Made by a program: the position numbers and the translations under genes. From Roseiflexus sp. RS-1 (lineage in GTDB: Bacteria > Chloroflexota > Chloroflexia > Chloroflexales > Roseiflexaceae): a stretch of 64,000 bases of DNA. Positions 2,816 to 52,692 of this stretch are shown here, one piece after another (the first letter of the stretch is position 1; the number at the start of each line of letters is the position of its first letter). Below the pieces are notes generated by a model. It worked only from the letters and a program-made list of their open reading frames with translations, was not told the DNA's origin and searched no databases. The DNA lies in the NCBI RefSeq assembly GCF_000016665.1, contig NC_009523.1:3471501-3535500 (forward strand), read 5' to 3'.

Positions 2816-2910
2816 ATGGAGATTGAGCAATACATCCGGTATGCACCCTTGCCGTGGGGCTGATGGAGGTTGAGAAATAAATCCGCTATACGCCTCTTGC
2901 CGTCGGGCTA
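2816..2910 (+). repeat. Two left halves (L, L) of the 116-bp mobile repeat
   Basis: Two consecutive pieces of 47 and 48 bp (2816-2862 and 2863-2910) each begin ATGGAG-TTGAG and end in GGGCTG/GGGCTA. They correspond to the first 48 bp of intact 116-bp copies elsewhere (for example 24707-24822). The matching right halves lie beyond the IS630 element at 4167-4303. Confidence 0.85.
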
Positions 2911-2978
2911 ATGGACTTTGAATAAATATTCCGTTATACTAATATTCATCCGTGTCAAGCCTTTCTCAGGAGGTTGCG

Positions 2979-3254
2979 ATGCCGGCACGCCGGACCCTTC
3001 ACTTGTCCGTCGAGGAGCGGGAGGCCCTCGAAGACCTGCGCGATCACGCCCCCAAGCCCTATTTGCGCGAACGGGCGGCGGCATTACTGCTCATCGCGTC
3101 TGGCGTACCGCCTGCCGTCGTGGCCCGCGAACGCTTGCTGCGTCCGCGCCATCCGGAAACCGTCTATCTCTGGCTGAATCGCTGGGAAGCCGAGGGCATC
3201 GATAGCCTCCCCATCCGGGACGGACGCGGGCGCAAGCCCGCTTTTTCCCCCTGA
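2979..3254 (+). CDS. IS630 transposase, first frame (helix-turn-helix part)
   Basis: The N-terminal, DNA-binding part of an IS630-family transposase, about 91 residues from an ATG at 2979 with an AGGAGG ribosome site at 2969-2974. It shows the helix-turn-helix stretch typical of the family (YLRERAAALLLIASGVPP, then a winged part ending in GRGRKPAFSP). It stops at TGA 3252-3254 in the context CCC-TGA-C. The second frame is already open from 3241 and holds the catalytic domain, so this ORF alone is not a functional transposase. Confidence 0.8.
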   Translation: MPARRTLHLSVEEREALEDLRDHAPKPYLRERAAALLLIASGVPPAVVARERLLRPRHPETVYLWLNRWEAEGIDSLPIRDGRGRKPAFSP

Positions 3255-4143
3255 CCGCCATGACCCTGAGACGGCGGCTACTGAGGTAGAGCATCTGGTC
3301 CGCCGTGACCCGCGGCAGTGCGGGCTGACCCAGACGCGCTGGACCCTGGACGCCATCCGCAGCCAGTTGGCGTGGGGGCGCGACGCCTCGCTGAGCGGGA
3401 TCGCCCGTATTCTGGATCGGTTGGGCATCACCTGGCAGCGCGCCCGCAGTCATGTGCATAGCCCTGATCCCCACTATCAGGCCAAACTGCAGGAGATCGC
3501 AGACGTGGTGGAGGATGCCCGCGCGCACCCCAACCAGGTGGTGACCGTGTATCTGGATGAAGTCACGGTCACCCGGCAACCGACCCTGGCCAACGGGTAT
3601 GGGCGGGCGGGCGCCGATCAGGTGCGGGCGGAACGGAGTCTGGCGACCGATTGCGAACTGCGCATCGTGGGCAGTTTGGACGTTGTGACGGGCCAGGTGG
3701 TCACCCGGCGGGCGAAGACGATTGGCCTGGCGACGCTGGTGCGATTCTACCAGGATCTGCACGCTGCCTATCCTGAGGCTGAGCGCATCTATGTCATTCT
3801 GGATAATTGGCCGGTCCATTTTCATCCGGATGTCCTGGTGGCGCTTGAGCCGCAAACAACCCGCTGGGCGTTTTCCCGTCCTGGCAATTGGCCGGCCACC
3901 CCCAGTGTGCGGGCCGTGCGCCGGGCTGGAGATGTCCGCCTGCCCATCCAACTGATGCCGTTGCCGACGTATGCGTCGTGGTGTAACCCGATCGAGAAGC
4001 TGTGGCGGTGGATGCGTCAGGAGGTCACCCACCTGCATCGCTGGGCGACGGATCTCGATCAGTTGCGCAACCACCTGGATGCCTTCTTCGCGTCGTTTGC
4101 AACCGGCTCGTCAAAGCTTTTACAGTATGTCGGTCTCGGATAG
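3241..4143 (+). CDS. IS630 transposase, second frame (DDE catalytic domain)
   Basis: The frame +1 to the first ORF is open from 3241. It carries the DDE superfamily catalytic domain: first Asp in VYLDEVTV (codon at 3556), second in VILDNWPVHF (about 3802), and Glu in NPIEKLW (about 3991). A conventional ATG exists only at 3367. Full-length protein needs a +1 shift, most simply by tRNA-Pro slipping from CCC (3249-3251) to CCT (3250-3252) at the stop codon. All catalytic residues are kept, so this looks like programmed frameshifting rather than decay. An ordinary inactivating indel is the alternative. Confidence 0.8.
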   Translation, partial: LFPPDRHDPETAATEVEHLVRRDPRQCGLTQTRWTLDAIRSQLAWGRDASLSGIARILDRLGITWQRARSHVHSPDPHYQAKLQEIADVVEDARAHPNQVVTVYLDEVTVTRQPTLANGYGRAGADQVRAERSLATDCELRIVGSLDVVTGQVVTRRAKTIGLATLVRFYQDLHAAYPEAERIYVILDNWPVHFHPDVLVALEPQTTRWAFSRPGNWPATPSVRAVRRAGDVRLPIQLMPLPTYASWCNPIEKLWRWMRQEVTHLHRWATDLDQLRNHLDAFFASFATGSSKLLQYVGLG

Positions 4144-4166
4144 CGGATTATTTATTCAAAGACCAT

Positions 4167-4303
4167 AAGCCCTCGGCTAGGCAAGGCGAAGCCCGCCTGC
4201 GCGGGCTGTAGCGGATTATTTACTCAAAGACCATAAGCCCTCGGCTATGGAACGCAAAGCCCGCCTGCGCGGGCTCTACCGGATTATTTATTCAAAAGAC
4301 CAT
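4167..4303 (+). repeat. Two right halves (R, R) of the 116-bp mobile repeat
   Basis: Pieces of 68 and 69 bp (4167-4234 and 4235-4303), each beginning AAGCCCTCGGCT, carrying the GCCCGC-CTGC-GCGGGC hairpin and ending CAAAGACCAT. With 2816-2910 they form the outer shells of an L-L-[IS630]-R-R nest. Confidence 0.85.
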
Positions 4304-4394
4304 AATTTCGGTCTACACTCCACCGGCAGCGATGACCTCGCGCGACACGGCGGATAGGAACAATGGTCAATGTATGAGAACTGCTGTAGTTTCT

Positions 4395-4560
4395 ATCAGC
4401 TATCAGGCCATCAGCTATCGGCTATCAGGCCATCAGCTATCAGCTATCGACTATCAGCTATCAGGCTATCGGCTATCACACCACCAGCCAGCAGCCACCA
4501 GCCATGAGCTATCAGGCTATCGGCTATCAGCTATCAGCTATCAGGCTATCGCCTATCAGC
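4395..4560. repeat. Heptanucleotide array, GCTATCRG type
   Basis: A long run of 7-bp units (GCTATCA, GGCTATC, GACTATC, with some 8-bp units) that reaches the stop codon of the minus-strand kinase gene at 4556. Confidence 0.85.
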
Positions 4561-12002: not shown

Positions 12003-12166
12003 ATGGAGATTGAGAATTTAATCCGGTATGCGCCTCTTGCCGTCGGGCTGATGGAGATTGAGAATTTAATCCGCTATACCGGACTAGCCGTCAGGCTGAA
12101 GCCCTCGGCCAGGCAAGGCGAAGCCCGCCTGCGCGGGCTATAGCGGAATAATTACTCAAAGACCAT
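12003..12166 (+). repeat. 116-bp mobile repeat with one extra left half
   Basis: A 48-bp left half (12003-12050) is followed directly by a full 116-bp copy (12051-12166) running from ATGGAGATTGAG to CAAAGACCAT. The core contains AAGCCCTCGGCC and the GCCCGC-CTGC-GCGGGC hairpin. No second right half follows, so this nest is incomplete. Confidence 0.85.
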
Positions 12167-13101: not shown

Positions 13102-13403
13102 ATGAAGATCAAGAATATAAACCGGTATTCGTTCTTGCCGTGAGGCTGATGGAGATTGAGAACTTAATCCGATATACCGCACTAGCCGTGGGGCTGAAGC
13201 CCTCGGCTACCCAGGGCAAAGCCCGCCTGCGCGGGCTATACCGGAGTAATCGTTCAAAGACCATAAGCCCTCGGCTATCCAGGGCGAAGCCCGCCTGCGC
13301 GGGCGAGAGCGGATTATGTATTCAAAGACCATAAGCCCTCGGCTATCCAGGGCGAAACCCGCCTGCGCGGGCTAGAATGGCGGATTATTGCTTCAAAGAC
13401 CAT
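13102..13403 (+). repeat. Nested 116-bp mobile repeats (L, full, R, R)
   Basis: Left half 13102-13148, full copy 13149-13264 (116 bp), right half 13265-13332 (68 bp), right half 13333-13403 (71 bp). Each half-boundary falls at the GGGCTG|AAGCCC centre. The order fits successive insertion of copies into the middle of earlier copies. Confidence 0.85.
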
Positions 13404-13523: not shown

Positions 13524-13639
13524 ATGGAGATTGAGAATATAATCCAGTATGCGCCTTTTGCCGTCGGGCTAAAGCCCTCGGCTATCCAGGGCGAAGCCCG
13601 CCTGCGCGGGCTATGGCGGATTATTTGTTCAAAGACCAT
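13524..13639 (+). repeat. Intact 116-bp mobile repeat
   Basis: A complete copy running from ATGGAGATTGAGAATATAAT to TGTTCAAAGACCAT. Its terminal 27 bp form an imperfect inverted repeat, and the centre reads GGGCTAAAGCCC. Confidence 0.85.
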
Positions 13640-21758: not shown

Positions 21759-24569
21759 ATGTTTCCGAACCCTGTTCCCATGGCACGCGCGCTGGCGCTG
21801 ATGACGCTGCTGCTGACCCTCCTGGCCGCCCCGGCGCTGGCGCAGTCGAACCCCACGATTATTGATGAAACCGGACAACTGGACACGGATGCGGTTCAGC
21901 GTGTCGCGCAACCGCTCATCGCGCGCGGTGCGCAGGTCGGTGTCTTCGTTGTACAGCGCGGCGGCGAGGATGATGCGCTGCGCAGGTATCAGCGCGCCGG
22001 TTTTGCCGACGGGAGCGCGATCAACGCCGATGCCATCCTTATCTATGTGTCGTTCGGTCCGAGCTACTCGGAGATTGCGTATGGCGACCGCTGGAATGCG
22101 GCGCTGCGCACGAACAATAATAGTGAAACCATTCGCCAGAACCGGCTGAACCCCGGTCTGGCGAGCGGCAATACCACCCGCGGCGTGGTTGATGCCCTCA
22201 CGGAGATCGAGCGTTCAATTGCTTCACCGCCCGTTCCCGCAGGCGGAACCACCGTCACCATCAACCCGGTCCCGATTGTGGTCGGGGTTATTTTTCTGGT
22301 GCTGCTGGCGATTGGCGGTCCAATGTTCTGGAGCAGCTTCCAGAAGCGGCGCGCGGCGGCAAAGGCGCTGGAAGCGGCGCGCACCGCTGCGGAAGAAGCG
22401 CGGCGATCCGCCAGTTCCGCGATTGTGGATGTCAGTCAGGCGCTGCGGAGTGCCCGGGAAAAAGCGCAGTTCGACAAAGTTTCCTACACTGAGTCGGATG
22501 TGCGTCAGCTTGCTGCAATGCAGGGCGACGTCGAGCAACAGGTTGCGCGTCTTCAGGAGCGGTTCTCAGAGATCGAGAAGCACCTGGCGCTGCGCCGGAC
22601 GCCAGCCCAGGCGGATTATGAGACAGTTGCGCAACAGTACCGCCAGCTGGAGCAGGAGATAACCGCCGCTCGCGAGCGACTTGCGCAGGTCGAAGCGCGT
22701 CGCGCCGAACTCGACCGGATTGCGCAGGCTGCGCCGGGTGAGGTGGACAAAGCAAAAAAAGCGCTGGCTGACGTTGCCGCGCAGTTCAGCGCGCTCAGCG
22801 CCGATCTCCAGTCCGAAGCGGCGCTCCGCACCGCCGGGTCGCTGGTCGAACGCGCTGAGCAATTGCTGGAGGAGCGTCGCGCCGCCGATGCAATCACGGC
22901 GGCTCAGGCAGCGTCAGCCACACTAACGTCGTTTGCCGATGTTGTTGCGCGTATGCGCGATATTTCCGATGGGATCGCAGCCGGACGAGCCGCAGCCGAA
23001 CGCGTCGCAGCGCAGGGTTTTCGCGTCGAAGCAGGCATGGCATCGTTCAACACTGCCGAAGGGTTGCTGCGTCAGGCGGCAGCGGCGCTGCCCGTCGTCG
23101 GACCGGAAGGGGTCGCCAGTCTGCTCGATCAGGCAGACAAAGCGCGTGAGATGGGCGTGCTTCGCGGCGGCGGGTTGCCGGCGCGCTACCGTGCCAACCT
23201 CGAACGGATCGAGAACGTCAAGGCTGCGGGAGAAGCGCTTGCGGCATTCATCGATGAAGGATGGCGCGTTTTCGACATCGTTGATGAGTTTGCCGAAAGT
23301 TCGTGGAGCGACATTCGCGGCAATGGCAGCGAAGCCGAGCGCGCCGCCGATGAGGCGCAGGAGTTGTGGGAACGGGCAGCCGAACGCAACTCGATGGAAC
23401 GGCAGGAATTCATTGAAGCCAGCGCGGATCTGGATGCAGCGGAAGAGCGGATCGCATACGCGCGCGCGCTCATCGAGGCGATCATCAAGCGCCTGAAAGA
23501 CCTGGAGGCCGCGCGTGACGCCGCGCGCGACGAAATTGCGGCTGCCGAGGCAGACATCATGCAGGGGCGCGCATTCATCGCCGCCAACGACCCCGATGTG
23601 GGCAAGGAACCCGAAAAACTCCTTGCACGCGCCGAGTCGGCACTGGCCCAGGCGCGCGCCGAAATCGGGCAGGAACGTCCCGACTGGTTGCAGATCATTC
23701 GCCTGGCGCACGAAGCCAATCATCTGGCGGATGAGGCGTTGCGTGGAGCACGCTCGGAAGTCGAGGCGATGAACCGGCTGCGTGAGCAACTCAAGCGGAT
23801 GCAACAGGTCGCCACCGCCGAAGTGCAAAAGATCGTTCAGTTTGTGAGCGTTCACCCGCGCGACATTCCGGTTGGTGCGAAGGATAAAATCAACGGGTTG
23901 CAGATCAATCTCCAGGCGGCCTATGCAGCGGCGCAAAGCGTCGATCAGAAAGAAGAGGAAGCGCGCGCAGCCGCATTGCGTGATGCCATTGAGCGGTATA
24001 CCGCGCTGGAACAGCAGGCTGCCAGCATTTATGAAGAGATCCGGAGCCATTTCCAGCGTCTCGAAGCCATGCGACAACGGGTGCGCGCCGAATCAGAGCG
24101 CGCGAAGGCGGCCATCAGCCGCGCTGAGCAACTGTCAGCACGGGCGGGGAGTCTGGTGAGCCGGGACGCTGCCGGATTTGCTCTGTTGCAGGAAGCGCGC
24201 ACCAGTTATAACCAGATCGGGCAGGTTTATAACGAGGCGGATATGCAGCGCGCACTGCGCTGGGCGCAGGAGGCGTATGAGAAAGCCGAGCGCGCGTCAC
24301 GAATCTTTGAGGAACAGATACGCGCTGCGTCGCAGCGCGATGATAGCCTCGGCGATTTCATCGGCGGCGTACTGGTCGGAACGCTCTTGAGCGATGGCCG
24401 GCCCCGTCGGAGCAGCTGGAGCGGCGGTAGTCGCGGCGGCGGCGGCTTTGGCGGCGGGCGCAGCGGCGGCGGGTTCGGCGGCGGCGGGCGCAGCGGCGGC
24501 GGGTTTGGCGGCGGCGGGCGCAGCGGCGGCGGCTTTGGCGGCGGCGGGCGCAGCGGCGGCGGGTGGTGA
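21759..24569 (+). CDS. TPM-domain membrane protein with long coiled coil and Gly-rich tail
   Basis: A 936-residue protein. Signal peptide ending APALAQS (about residue 27). A TPM (YgcG-like) domain follows at about 30-150, with AQVGVFVVQRG, AILIYVSFGPSYSEIAYGDRW and the end of the domain at LTEIERSIA. A transmembrane segment VPIVVGVIFLVLLAIGG lies at about 170-188. About 620 residues of Ala/Glu/Arg-rich coiled coil follow, and finally a Ser-Gly-Gly-Phe-rich tail ending in GGGW. TPM domains occur in envelope-quality and photosystem-repair proteins, but the function here is unknown. Start ATG at 21759, eight bases after AGGAGG (GTG 21756 possible). A mobile repeat begins immediately at its stop codon. 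Confidence 0.8.
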   Translation: MFPNPVPMARALALMTLLLTLLAAPALAQSNPTIIDETGQLDTDAVQRVAQPLIARGAQVGVFVVQRGGEDDALRRYQRAGFADGSAINADAILIYVSFGPSYSEIAYGDRWNAALRTNNNSETIRQNRLNPGLASGNTTRGVVDALTEIERSIASPPVPAGGTTVTINPVPIVVGVIFLVLLAIGGPMFWSSFQKRRAAAKALEAARTAAEEARRSASSAIVDVSQALRSAREKAQFDKVSYTESDVRQLAAMQGDVEQQVARLQERFSEIEKHLALRRTPAQADYETVAQQYRQLEQEITAARERLAQVEARRAELDRIAQAAPGEVDKAKKALADVAAQFSALSADLQSEAALRTAGSLVERAEQLLEERRAADAITAAQAASATLTSFADVVARMRDISDGIAAGRAAAERVAAQGFRVEAGMASFNTAEGLLRQAAAALPVVGPEGVASLLDQADKAREMGVLRGGGLPARYRANLERIENVKAAGEALAAFIDEGWRVFDIVDEFAESSWSDIRGNGSEAERAADEAQELWERAAERNSMERQEFIEASADLDAAEERIAYARALIEAIIKRLKDLEAARDAARDEIAAAEADIMQGRAFIAANDPDVGKEPEKLLARAESALAQARAEIGQERPDWLQIIRLAHEANHLADEALRGARSEVEAMNRLREQLKRMQQVATAEVQKIVQFVSVHPRDIPVGAKDKINGLQINLQAAYAAAQSVDQKEEEARAAALRDAIERYTALEQQAASIYEEIRSHFQRLEAMRQRVRAESERAKAAISRAEQLSARAGSLVSRDAAGFALLQEARTSYNQIGQVYNEADMQRALRWAQEAYEKAERASRIFEEQIRAASQRDDSLGDFIGGVLVGTLLSDGRPRRSSWSGGSRGGGGFGGGRSGGGFGGGGRSGGGFGGGGRSGGGFGGGGRSGGGW

Positions 24570-24935
24570 ATGAACATAGAAACCGGTATTCGTCCTCTCG
24601 CCGTGGGGCTGATGAAGGTTGAGCACTTAATCCGTATGCGCCTCGTGCCGTCGGGCTAATGGAGATTGAGAAATAAATCCGCTATACGCCTTGTGCCGTC
24701 GGGCTAATGGAGATTGAGAATATAATCCAGTATGCGCCTTTTGCCGTCGGGCTAAAGCCCTCGGCTATCCAGGGCGAAGCCCGCCTGCGCGGGCTAGAGC
24801 GGAATATTTCTTCAAAGACCATAAGCCCTCGGCTAGGCAAGGCGAAGCCCGCCTGCGCGGGCGAGAGCAGAATAATTCTCAAAGACCATAAGCCCTCGGC
24901 TGGTCAAGGCGAAGCCCGCCTGCGCGGGCTAAATC
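24570..24935 (+). repeat. Nested 116-bp mobile repeats (L, L, L, full, R, R)
   Basis: Left halves at 24570-24611, 24612-24658 and 24659-24706; full copy 24707-24822 (116 bp); right halves 24823-24889 and 24890-about 24935 (end lost). All left halves end at GGGCT-A/G and all right halves begin AAGCCC or AGCCC. This is the deepest nest in the window and starts at the TPM gene stop codon. Confidence 0.85.
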
Positions 24936-25003
24936 GATAGGCGGCGTCAGCGGCCGTCGCCCTGATAGCCAGGCCCTTCAGGCGACGGCGCGCCGTGGGG
25001 CTG

Positions 25004-25213
25004 ATGAAGGTTGAGCACTTAATCCGTATGCGCCTCGTGCCGTCGGGCTAATGAAGATTGAGAAATAAATCCGCTATACTGTGCTGGCCGTGGGGCTGAA
25101 GCCCTCGGCTATGGAATGCAAAGCCCGCCTGCGCGGGCGAGAGCGGAATAATTCCTCAAAGACCATAAGCCCTCGGCTAGGCAAGGCGAAGCCCGCCTGC
25201 GCAGGCGAGAGCG
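25004..25213 (+). repeat. Nested 116-bp mobile repeats (L, full, partial R)
   Basis: Left half 25004-25050, full copy 25051-25166 (116 bp), partial right half 25167-25213. A fragment of another left half (CCGTGGGGCTG) precedes it at about 24993. Confidence 0.85.
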
Positions 25214-25310
25214 GAGATACGTTGACCATCGTTCGCGTCTGCCGCACTGTACGCGGCGCCTGCTTCTGGTGGAGAGTTCAACCTTGCCCAATAGGTTCAA
25301 TGGATGACAC

Positions 25311-52290: not shown

Positions 52291-52425
52291 GCGGCGGTAG
52301 ACCGAAATTCATTTCGGTCGCCGCGTGGGGAGTGCGATTCCGGGGAGTGTTCAACCTTGTCCAAACAGGTTCAACCTTTGTGAGAACTGCTCTAAATCCG
52401 CTCTACCGAACGAGCCGTCGGGCTC

Positions 52426-52564
52426 ATGGAGATTGAGTGCGCCTCAGCAGGCTGAATTGAGAAATAAATCCGCTATCCCGCACTAGCCGTGGGGCTAAAG
52501 CCCTCGGCTAGGCAAGGCAAAGCCCGCCTGCGCGGGCTATACCGGATTATTTCTTTAAAGACCA
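52426..52564 (+). repeat. 116-bp-family mobile repeat with a small internal insertion
   Basis: Runs from ATGGAGATTGAG to TTAAAGACCAT over 139 bp. About 23 bp are duplicated or inserted near the left end (GTGCGCCTCAGCAGGCTGAATTGAG), so the first ATTGAG is followed by a second one. The core and hairpin are intact. Confidence 0.75.
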
Positions 52565-52692
52565 TAAGCCCTGGCTGAGGTCGGACAAGACCTGCGGGCT
52601 GGATCAACCTGGCGACCCCTCGGCATAAAGAAGGATGATTGGACGCGCCAGCCCCGCAGGGGCTTCCACGCGCTCAGGGAGGGCTTTAGCCC
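52565..52692 (-). repeat. Second dispersed repeat family, copy B (inverted)
   Basis: Reverse complement of the family seen at 13404-13523: CAGCCAGGGCTT, GATCCAGCCCGCAGG, AGCCCCTGCGGGGCT and GAGGGCTTTAGCCC are all recognisable. Between 52693 and 52935 no gene or clear repeat is seen. Confidence 0.8.

Follow-up and report, generated by a model that had tools for sequence, protein, structure and literature searches.

IS630/Tc1-mariner transposition has been described as mechanistically uniform, with TA as the target and a 2-bp duplication as its trace (PMC2170065). Spy transposons, which are DDE elements, leave no target duplication and prefer the self-complementary AAATTT (PMC4482050). Among bacterial insertion sequences (IS), IS1397, ISKpn1 and ISRm22 target REP palindromes (PMC1525189), and IS1111 is found in QMITE2 (PMC10969869). 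Bacterial MITEs such as Chunjie are short, non-autonomous, mostly intergenic elements with terminal inverted repeats; the 2024 review that covers them makes no mention of MITE nesting (PMC10969869). A literature search for Roseiflexus MITEs, nested bacterial MITEs and zero-duplication IS630 elements, in which subscription journals are poorly covered, returned nothing matching. Nests of this kind occur in Roseiflexus sp. RS-1, whose genome is one contig of 5,801,598 bp, and are described here from a window of 64,000 nucleotides (the whole stretch of DNA analysed) and from the rest of the genome. Beneath the nests lies a broader result, an IS630-like clade with blunt insertion at palindrome centres, of which nested MITE shells are the outcome.

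The first-pass annotation of the window had reported a 116-bp repeat nested in itself at 24570-24935, each copy being split at its own centre by the next, with the same pattern at 13102-13403, 25004-25213 and 2816-4303. Two profile models made from this genome, a 48-bp left half (L) and a 68-bp right half (R), were used for an nhmmer parse of the window. This recovered every nest that had been named as well as the repeat length, 116 bp being the sum of the two halves, and gave the following features:

2816-4303, plus strand: MITE nest L L [IS 2911-4166] R R (profile parse)
12003-12166, plus strand: MITE nest L L / R (profile parse; not in the first-pass annotation)
13102-13403, plus strand: MITE nest L L / R R R (profile parse)
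13524-13639, plus strand: single MITE within an independent palindrome, CAGGGCTT / CAGCCCG (profile parse; newly reported)
24565-24936, plus strand: MITE nest L(eroded) L L L / R R R(truncated) (nhmmer parse; direct repeats)
24565-24611, 24612-24658, 24659-24706 and 24707-24754, plus strand: left halves of the preceding nest, the first eroded
24755-24822, 24823-24889 and 24890-24936, plus strand: right halves of the same nest, the last truncated
25004-25216, plus strand: MITE nest L L / R R(truncated) (profile parse)
52456-52565, plus strand: MITE copy L R (profile parse; newly reported)

The nest at 24565-24936, which the profile-HMM parse reads as L-L-L-(full)-R-R, has its innermost L and R contiguous and its outermost pieces eroded, and its half scores drop outward on either side (from the centre, 48, 53, 38 and 21 bits for L; 79, 64 and 41 bits for R). 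All halves break at a single base, left halves ending in GGGCT-N and right halves starting with A-AGCCC. Counts of the 13-nt right-end motif place the MITE nests beyond chance, with 16 in the window vs 1.3 expected and 545 genome-wide vs 168 for the reversed control pattern; tandem spacings of 68 bp (right half) and 48 bp (left half) recur across the genome. Two neighbouring nests contain identical left halves (24612-24658 and 25004-25050) with the same left flank (CGCCGTGGGGCTG), which suggests recombination or duplication between nests. Simple repeats of 'ctatcagctatcag' at 4390-4480 adjoin the nest that contains the IS. A PADLOC search gave no match.

The IS in the first of these nests supplies the candidate transposase:

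2911-4166, plus strand: IS630-family IS with ends ATGGACTTTG...CAAAGACCAT, at the exact MITE centre with zero target duplication
2979-3254, plus strand: transposase ORF A, HTH domains (domain search)
3178-4143, plus strand: transposase ORF B open frame, DDE_3 domain, IS630 model (domain search)

This resident IS630 (DDE_3) element is 1255 bp long, and its BLAST core (2912-4166) is one base shorter at the left end than the element as delimited above. Scores of 123.7 bits against NCBIfam transpos_IS630 (cut-off 100) and 68.5 bits against Pfam DDE_3 (cut-off 28.6) place the transposase, as far as sequence models assign it, in the IS630/DDE_3 family. Its coding sequence is split over two frames that overlap at a TTTTTCCCCC run, directly 5' of the ORF A stop; the position of this run suggests a frameshift product, and a programmed frameshift likely joins ORF A to ORF B. 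In the IS630 family the second D of the catalytic site is followed by the E after about 34 residues. In the transposase described here this spacing is 63, and in eight relatives it is 59; an extra segment is predicted around residues 183-217. By structure comparison the closest matches of the predicted catalytic core are Mos1 and Sleeping Beauty, at a Z of about 13, and a PDB sequence search with the transposase found no significant relative. The right ends of the MITE consensus and the IS are identical at 27/27 nt and the left ends at 18/27; these shared ends make a MITE, that is, a non-autonomous derivative, of the resident IS the best reading of the 116-bp repeat. The two also have their target mode in common, each entering a dyad between its two central bases, and all 12 full-length IS copies listed (91-100% identical) sit at the exact MITE centre, nine in the same orientation and three reversed.

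Genome-wide, 120 stretches around matches were analysed, corresponding to 120 of 128 clusters of matches; as each search covers the first 100 places, all copy and chain counts are lower bounds. At least 257 MITE chains were parsed in these stretches, at least 90 of them being nests with more than one shell, L^m [IS] R^n, and several hundred repeat ends in the genome are explained by the IS/MITE system. At genome 3002595-3004216 (L150), near-identical MITE blocks stand in tandem with a period of 278 bp, a higher-order duplication of a nest.

The junctions reveal how the copies entered. Intact MITE centres, GGGCT-NN-AGCCC, carry GA (125), AA (21) or CA (2); nested left junctions, GGGCT-NN-TGG, carry GA (77), AA (23) or CA (11); and nested right junctions, CCA-NN-AGCCC, carry TA (83) or TC (11). 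A dinucleotide duplication is never found at nested junctions, and a C, rare in intact centres, is present at about 10% of junctions. An occupied site reads GGGCT-N on the left and M-AGCCC on the right with the element ATGG...CCAT between, N and M being the two central bases, neither of them duplicated. Models with duplication of TA or of GA were both rejected, the former by the junction statistics and the latter because right junctions are never GA. A second target family has the same geometry, and one of its empty copies lies in the window:

52300-52319, unstranded: empty copy of the second target dyad ACCGAAAT-NN-ATTTCGGTC (pattern listing)

At least about 67 empty copies of this dyad are present in the genome. 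Their central spacing is 2 in every copy listed, mostly GA/TC or AA/TT; occupied copies retain one central base per side, with N,M pairs similar to those of empty copies. Orthologous empty sites in sister genomes for the insertions at 982916, 814440, 1933543, 1462258 and 2403789 have no duplicated junction base; the ortholog pairs 3064459 and 4536890, with junction differences of 8 nt and 1 nt, respectively, count against this. By these comparisons, insertion splits the central dinucleotide of a palindrome (T-N/N-A) without target duplication, and the TA insertion with 2-bp TA duplication by which IS630 elements are recognized is missing from junctions, empty dyads and orthologous empty sites alike. 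This lack of any target duplication is the most unusual feature of the system and did not figure in the first-pass annotation, which was right that the repeat carries its own insertion site; the site is however not self-specific, palindrome centres in general being used.

What these targets have in common is their symmetry. Among 105 outermost insertions, complementarity between the two flanks is found in 75-90% of cases at positions 1-5 and in 16% at the central pair. The pattern persists in the 37 distinct non-self targets left after exclusion of self-targets and duplicates, their complementarity at positions 2-5 exceeding all 2000 permutations despite variable base identity. Target arms that vary in sequence yet covary point to dyad symmetry itself as the target. 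The commonest arms are the G+C-rich GGGCT, and the central pair mostly lies between a T and an A, so that a single strand would fold as a stem with a TNNA loop whose apex is the insertion point; strong hairpins are predicted by folding at target sites. Since the MITE has a palindrome of this type at its centre (CTAGCCGTGGGGCT-GA-AGCCCTCGGCTAG), it nests in itself. A second repeat family (TATAGCAGTTCTC...GAGAACTGCTATA), with central dyad GACCGAAAT-NN-ATTTCGGTC, is seen at 52300-52319 of the window and at L232:660-990; it inserts into the MITE left half, so that the two families nest mutually.

Orientation at independent palindromes is random (27:22), whereas MITE-in-MITE nests among the parsed chains are co-oriented 65:1 (Fisher p=4e-9), which also exceeds the 9:3 of IS in MITE (p=0.01). 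The 65:1 bias is not predicted by a symmetric target; counter-selection of reversed nests, in which long inverted repeats would arise, is plausible. The only reversed MITE-in-MITE nest among the chains parsed, L R' L' R R, is at L169:1360-1660 (genome 3851049-3851348).

Inward growth in concentric shells had been proposed from the window alone, with younger inner copies as its test, and is borne out by the score gradient on both sides of the nests and by a sister nest that shares outer but not inner shells. HMM scores were used for the age test because indels ruled out comparing outer left halves pairwise by identity at each position. Inner halves are nearer the family consensus than next-outer halves, with the inner score higher in 84/100 left comparisons (84:16, p=3e-12) and in 71/95 right ones (71:24, p=1e-6). 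The second left half and its matching right half have diverged in step (rho 0.49, p=0.002), more so than crossed pairs (0.21-0.27). Neither younger outer halves nor differing break bases, the two observations named beforehand as refuting the nest reading, were seen genome-wide. The nest at genome 3639239 has an ortholog in the sister-species genome G001, which matches it in two outer left shells (at 97% and 88% identity) and, at 93%, in the outermost right half; G001 lacks the inner shells, which may reflect their later arrival in RS-1 or, as this is a comparison of two genomes, a loss in G001. Elsewhere, L224 and genome 4102471-4103115 are about 97-99.8% identical between species, other orthologous loci being at roughly 85-95%, which suggests transfer or contamination.

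Very probably, then, an IS630-type transposase inserts MITE and IS copies at palindrome centres without duplication, and the nests grow inward as a consequence. Sequence comparison documents nests, one break point, zero duplication, random orientation at independent palindromes, covarying arms, younger inner shells and the same mode in relatives. In the mechanism proposed, the transposase of the resident IS would mobilise the MITE, and each copy goes in at the precise centre of a dyad, separating its two middle bases (T-N/N-A) with no duplication. Symmetry would be read as an extruded hairpin or cruciform with both loop tips cut, making the insertion blunt by geometry. MITE and IS copies would repeatedly enter the MITE's own central palindrome, and the locus would expand inward as L^n R^n. 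Among multi-shell nests, an exact balance of L and R is not significantly commoner than expected (38 observed vs 34 by permutation); later recombination of the tandem halves with one another, the presumed source of uneven counts, would fit this.

Related IS, with transposases 33-58% identical, occur in Chloroflexota, Nostoc, Cyanosarcina, Komarekiella, Saprospirales and others. The Nostoc relative sits between the complementary arms AGTCCACT-G/A-AGTGGACT and the Saprospirales relative between TTGCCCCT-A/A-AGGGGCAA. With element boundaries set partly by eye, at least four of six arm pairs were found in 12/13 relatives examined; in the thirteenth (L056) arms are present and the centre is ambiguous. 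One or two IS copies per relative genome make this about a dozen independent cases. Relatives also sit within palindromes, so the target mode is a property of the clade and not of this genome alone, and the spacing of the last two catalytic positions is 59-63 residues across it. Transposase searches of plasmids and of viral contigs found none, and a search of 200 genomes of the phylum added one genome. The wider proposal, to which slightly less than an even chance is given, is that this IS630-like clade of Chloroflexota, Cyanobacteria and other phyla reads DNA shape, cutting cruciform tips at the loop apex and inserting bluntly into palindromes with arms of about five bases or more, its own included.

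Could the transposase instead recognize double-stranded half-sites, specific sequences in a symmetric array cut with zero stagger and no hairpin? The usual T and A beside the central pair and the predominance of GGGCT arms would suit such recognition, which is nevertheless unlikely, though a serious contender, given arms that differ widely yet remain complementary beyond all permutations, and that differ again in relatives. Recombination or tandem duplication of half repeats, in place of repeated insertion, is improbable. It would account for unbalanced counts such as L R R R R, for the non-significant excess of balanced ones and for the identical outer left half in two window nests; whole-unit tandem duplication, however, gives LRLR and not LLRR, and IS copies at the same point, solo copies in unrelated palindromes, the inner-younger gradient on both sides and the ortholog with fewer inner shells all argue for insertion.

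Insertion sites fall within long open frames (at least 600 nt) in 31% of cases vs 80% for nearby controls, a scarcity that suits extragenic palindromes; protection of genes by nesting, as the first-pass annotation had supposed, gained no separate support, and palindromes between genes suffice. The same avoidance of long open frames, with the strong hairpins, is what retention of the arrays for a hairpin function (termination, RNA stability, nucleoid binding) would lead one to expect; it is quite improbable that they are more than transposon scars in this sense, as outer shells erode and shell number differs in the sister species. Least credible is an ordinary IS630/Tc1-type MITE that duplicates TA and strongly prefers the sequence of its own centre, with later mutations behind the odd flank bases. 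The family assignment, the TA duplication of known IS630-family elements (PMC2170065) and right junctions that are mostly CCA-TA speak for it, but it is already contradicted: TA is found at 0/111 readable nested left junctions, near-identical IS copies in both orientations share one non-TA left base, and empty dyads and ortholog sites are without duplication.

If blunt dyad-centre insertion by an IS630-family clade is true, it breaks the TA-duplication rule, and the clade's insertions could report the extrusion of hairpins by palindromes in vivo. Each nest is also an insertion stack of known order, which makes the history of its locus directly readable. Chunjie resembles the Roseiflexus MITE as a short non-autonomous element with terminal inverted repeats, mostly between genes, and differs in having direct repeats (PMC10969869). 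The REP-targeting ISs (IS1397, ISKpn1, ISRm22; IS1111 in QMITE2) likewise use extragenic palindromes, but belong to other IS families and are directed to particular repeat families, whereas the Roseiflexus system uses varied dyads, its own included. Spy, of the eukaryotic PHIS superfamily, shares zero target duplication and a self-complementary site (PMC4482050); it is unlike in being eukaryotic and probably of another superfamily, Pfam and NCBIfam placing the Roseiflexus transposase in DDE_3/IS630, and in its fixed AAATTT motif where any palindrome serves here, and the passages on Spy consulted describe no self-nesting (PMC4482050). Closest are the IS630 family and Tc1-mariner (ISY100, IS630, Mos1), alike in DDE_3 domain, HTH domains, terminal inverted repeats and an IS of ~1.25 kb, with Mos1 and Sleeping Beauty the nearest predicted folds; from these the Roseiflexus IS is set apart by the absence of TA duplication, by dyad-centre insertion and by the 59-63 residues that separate the second D from the E in its clade.
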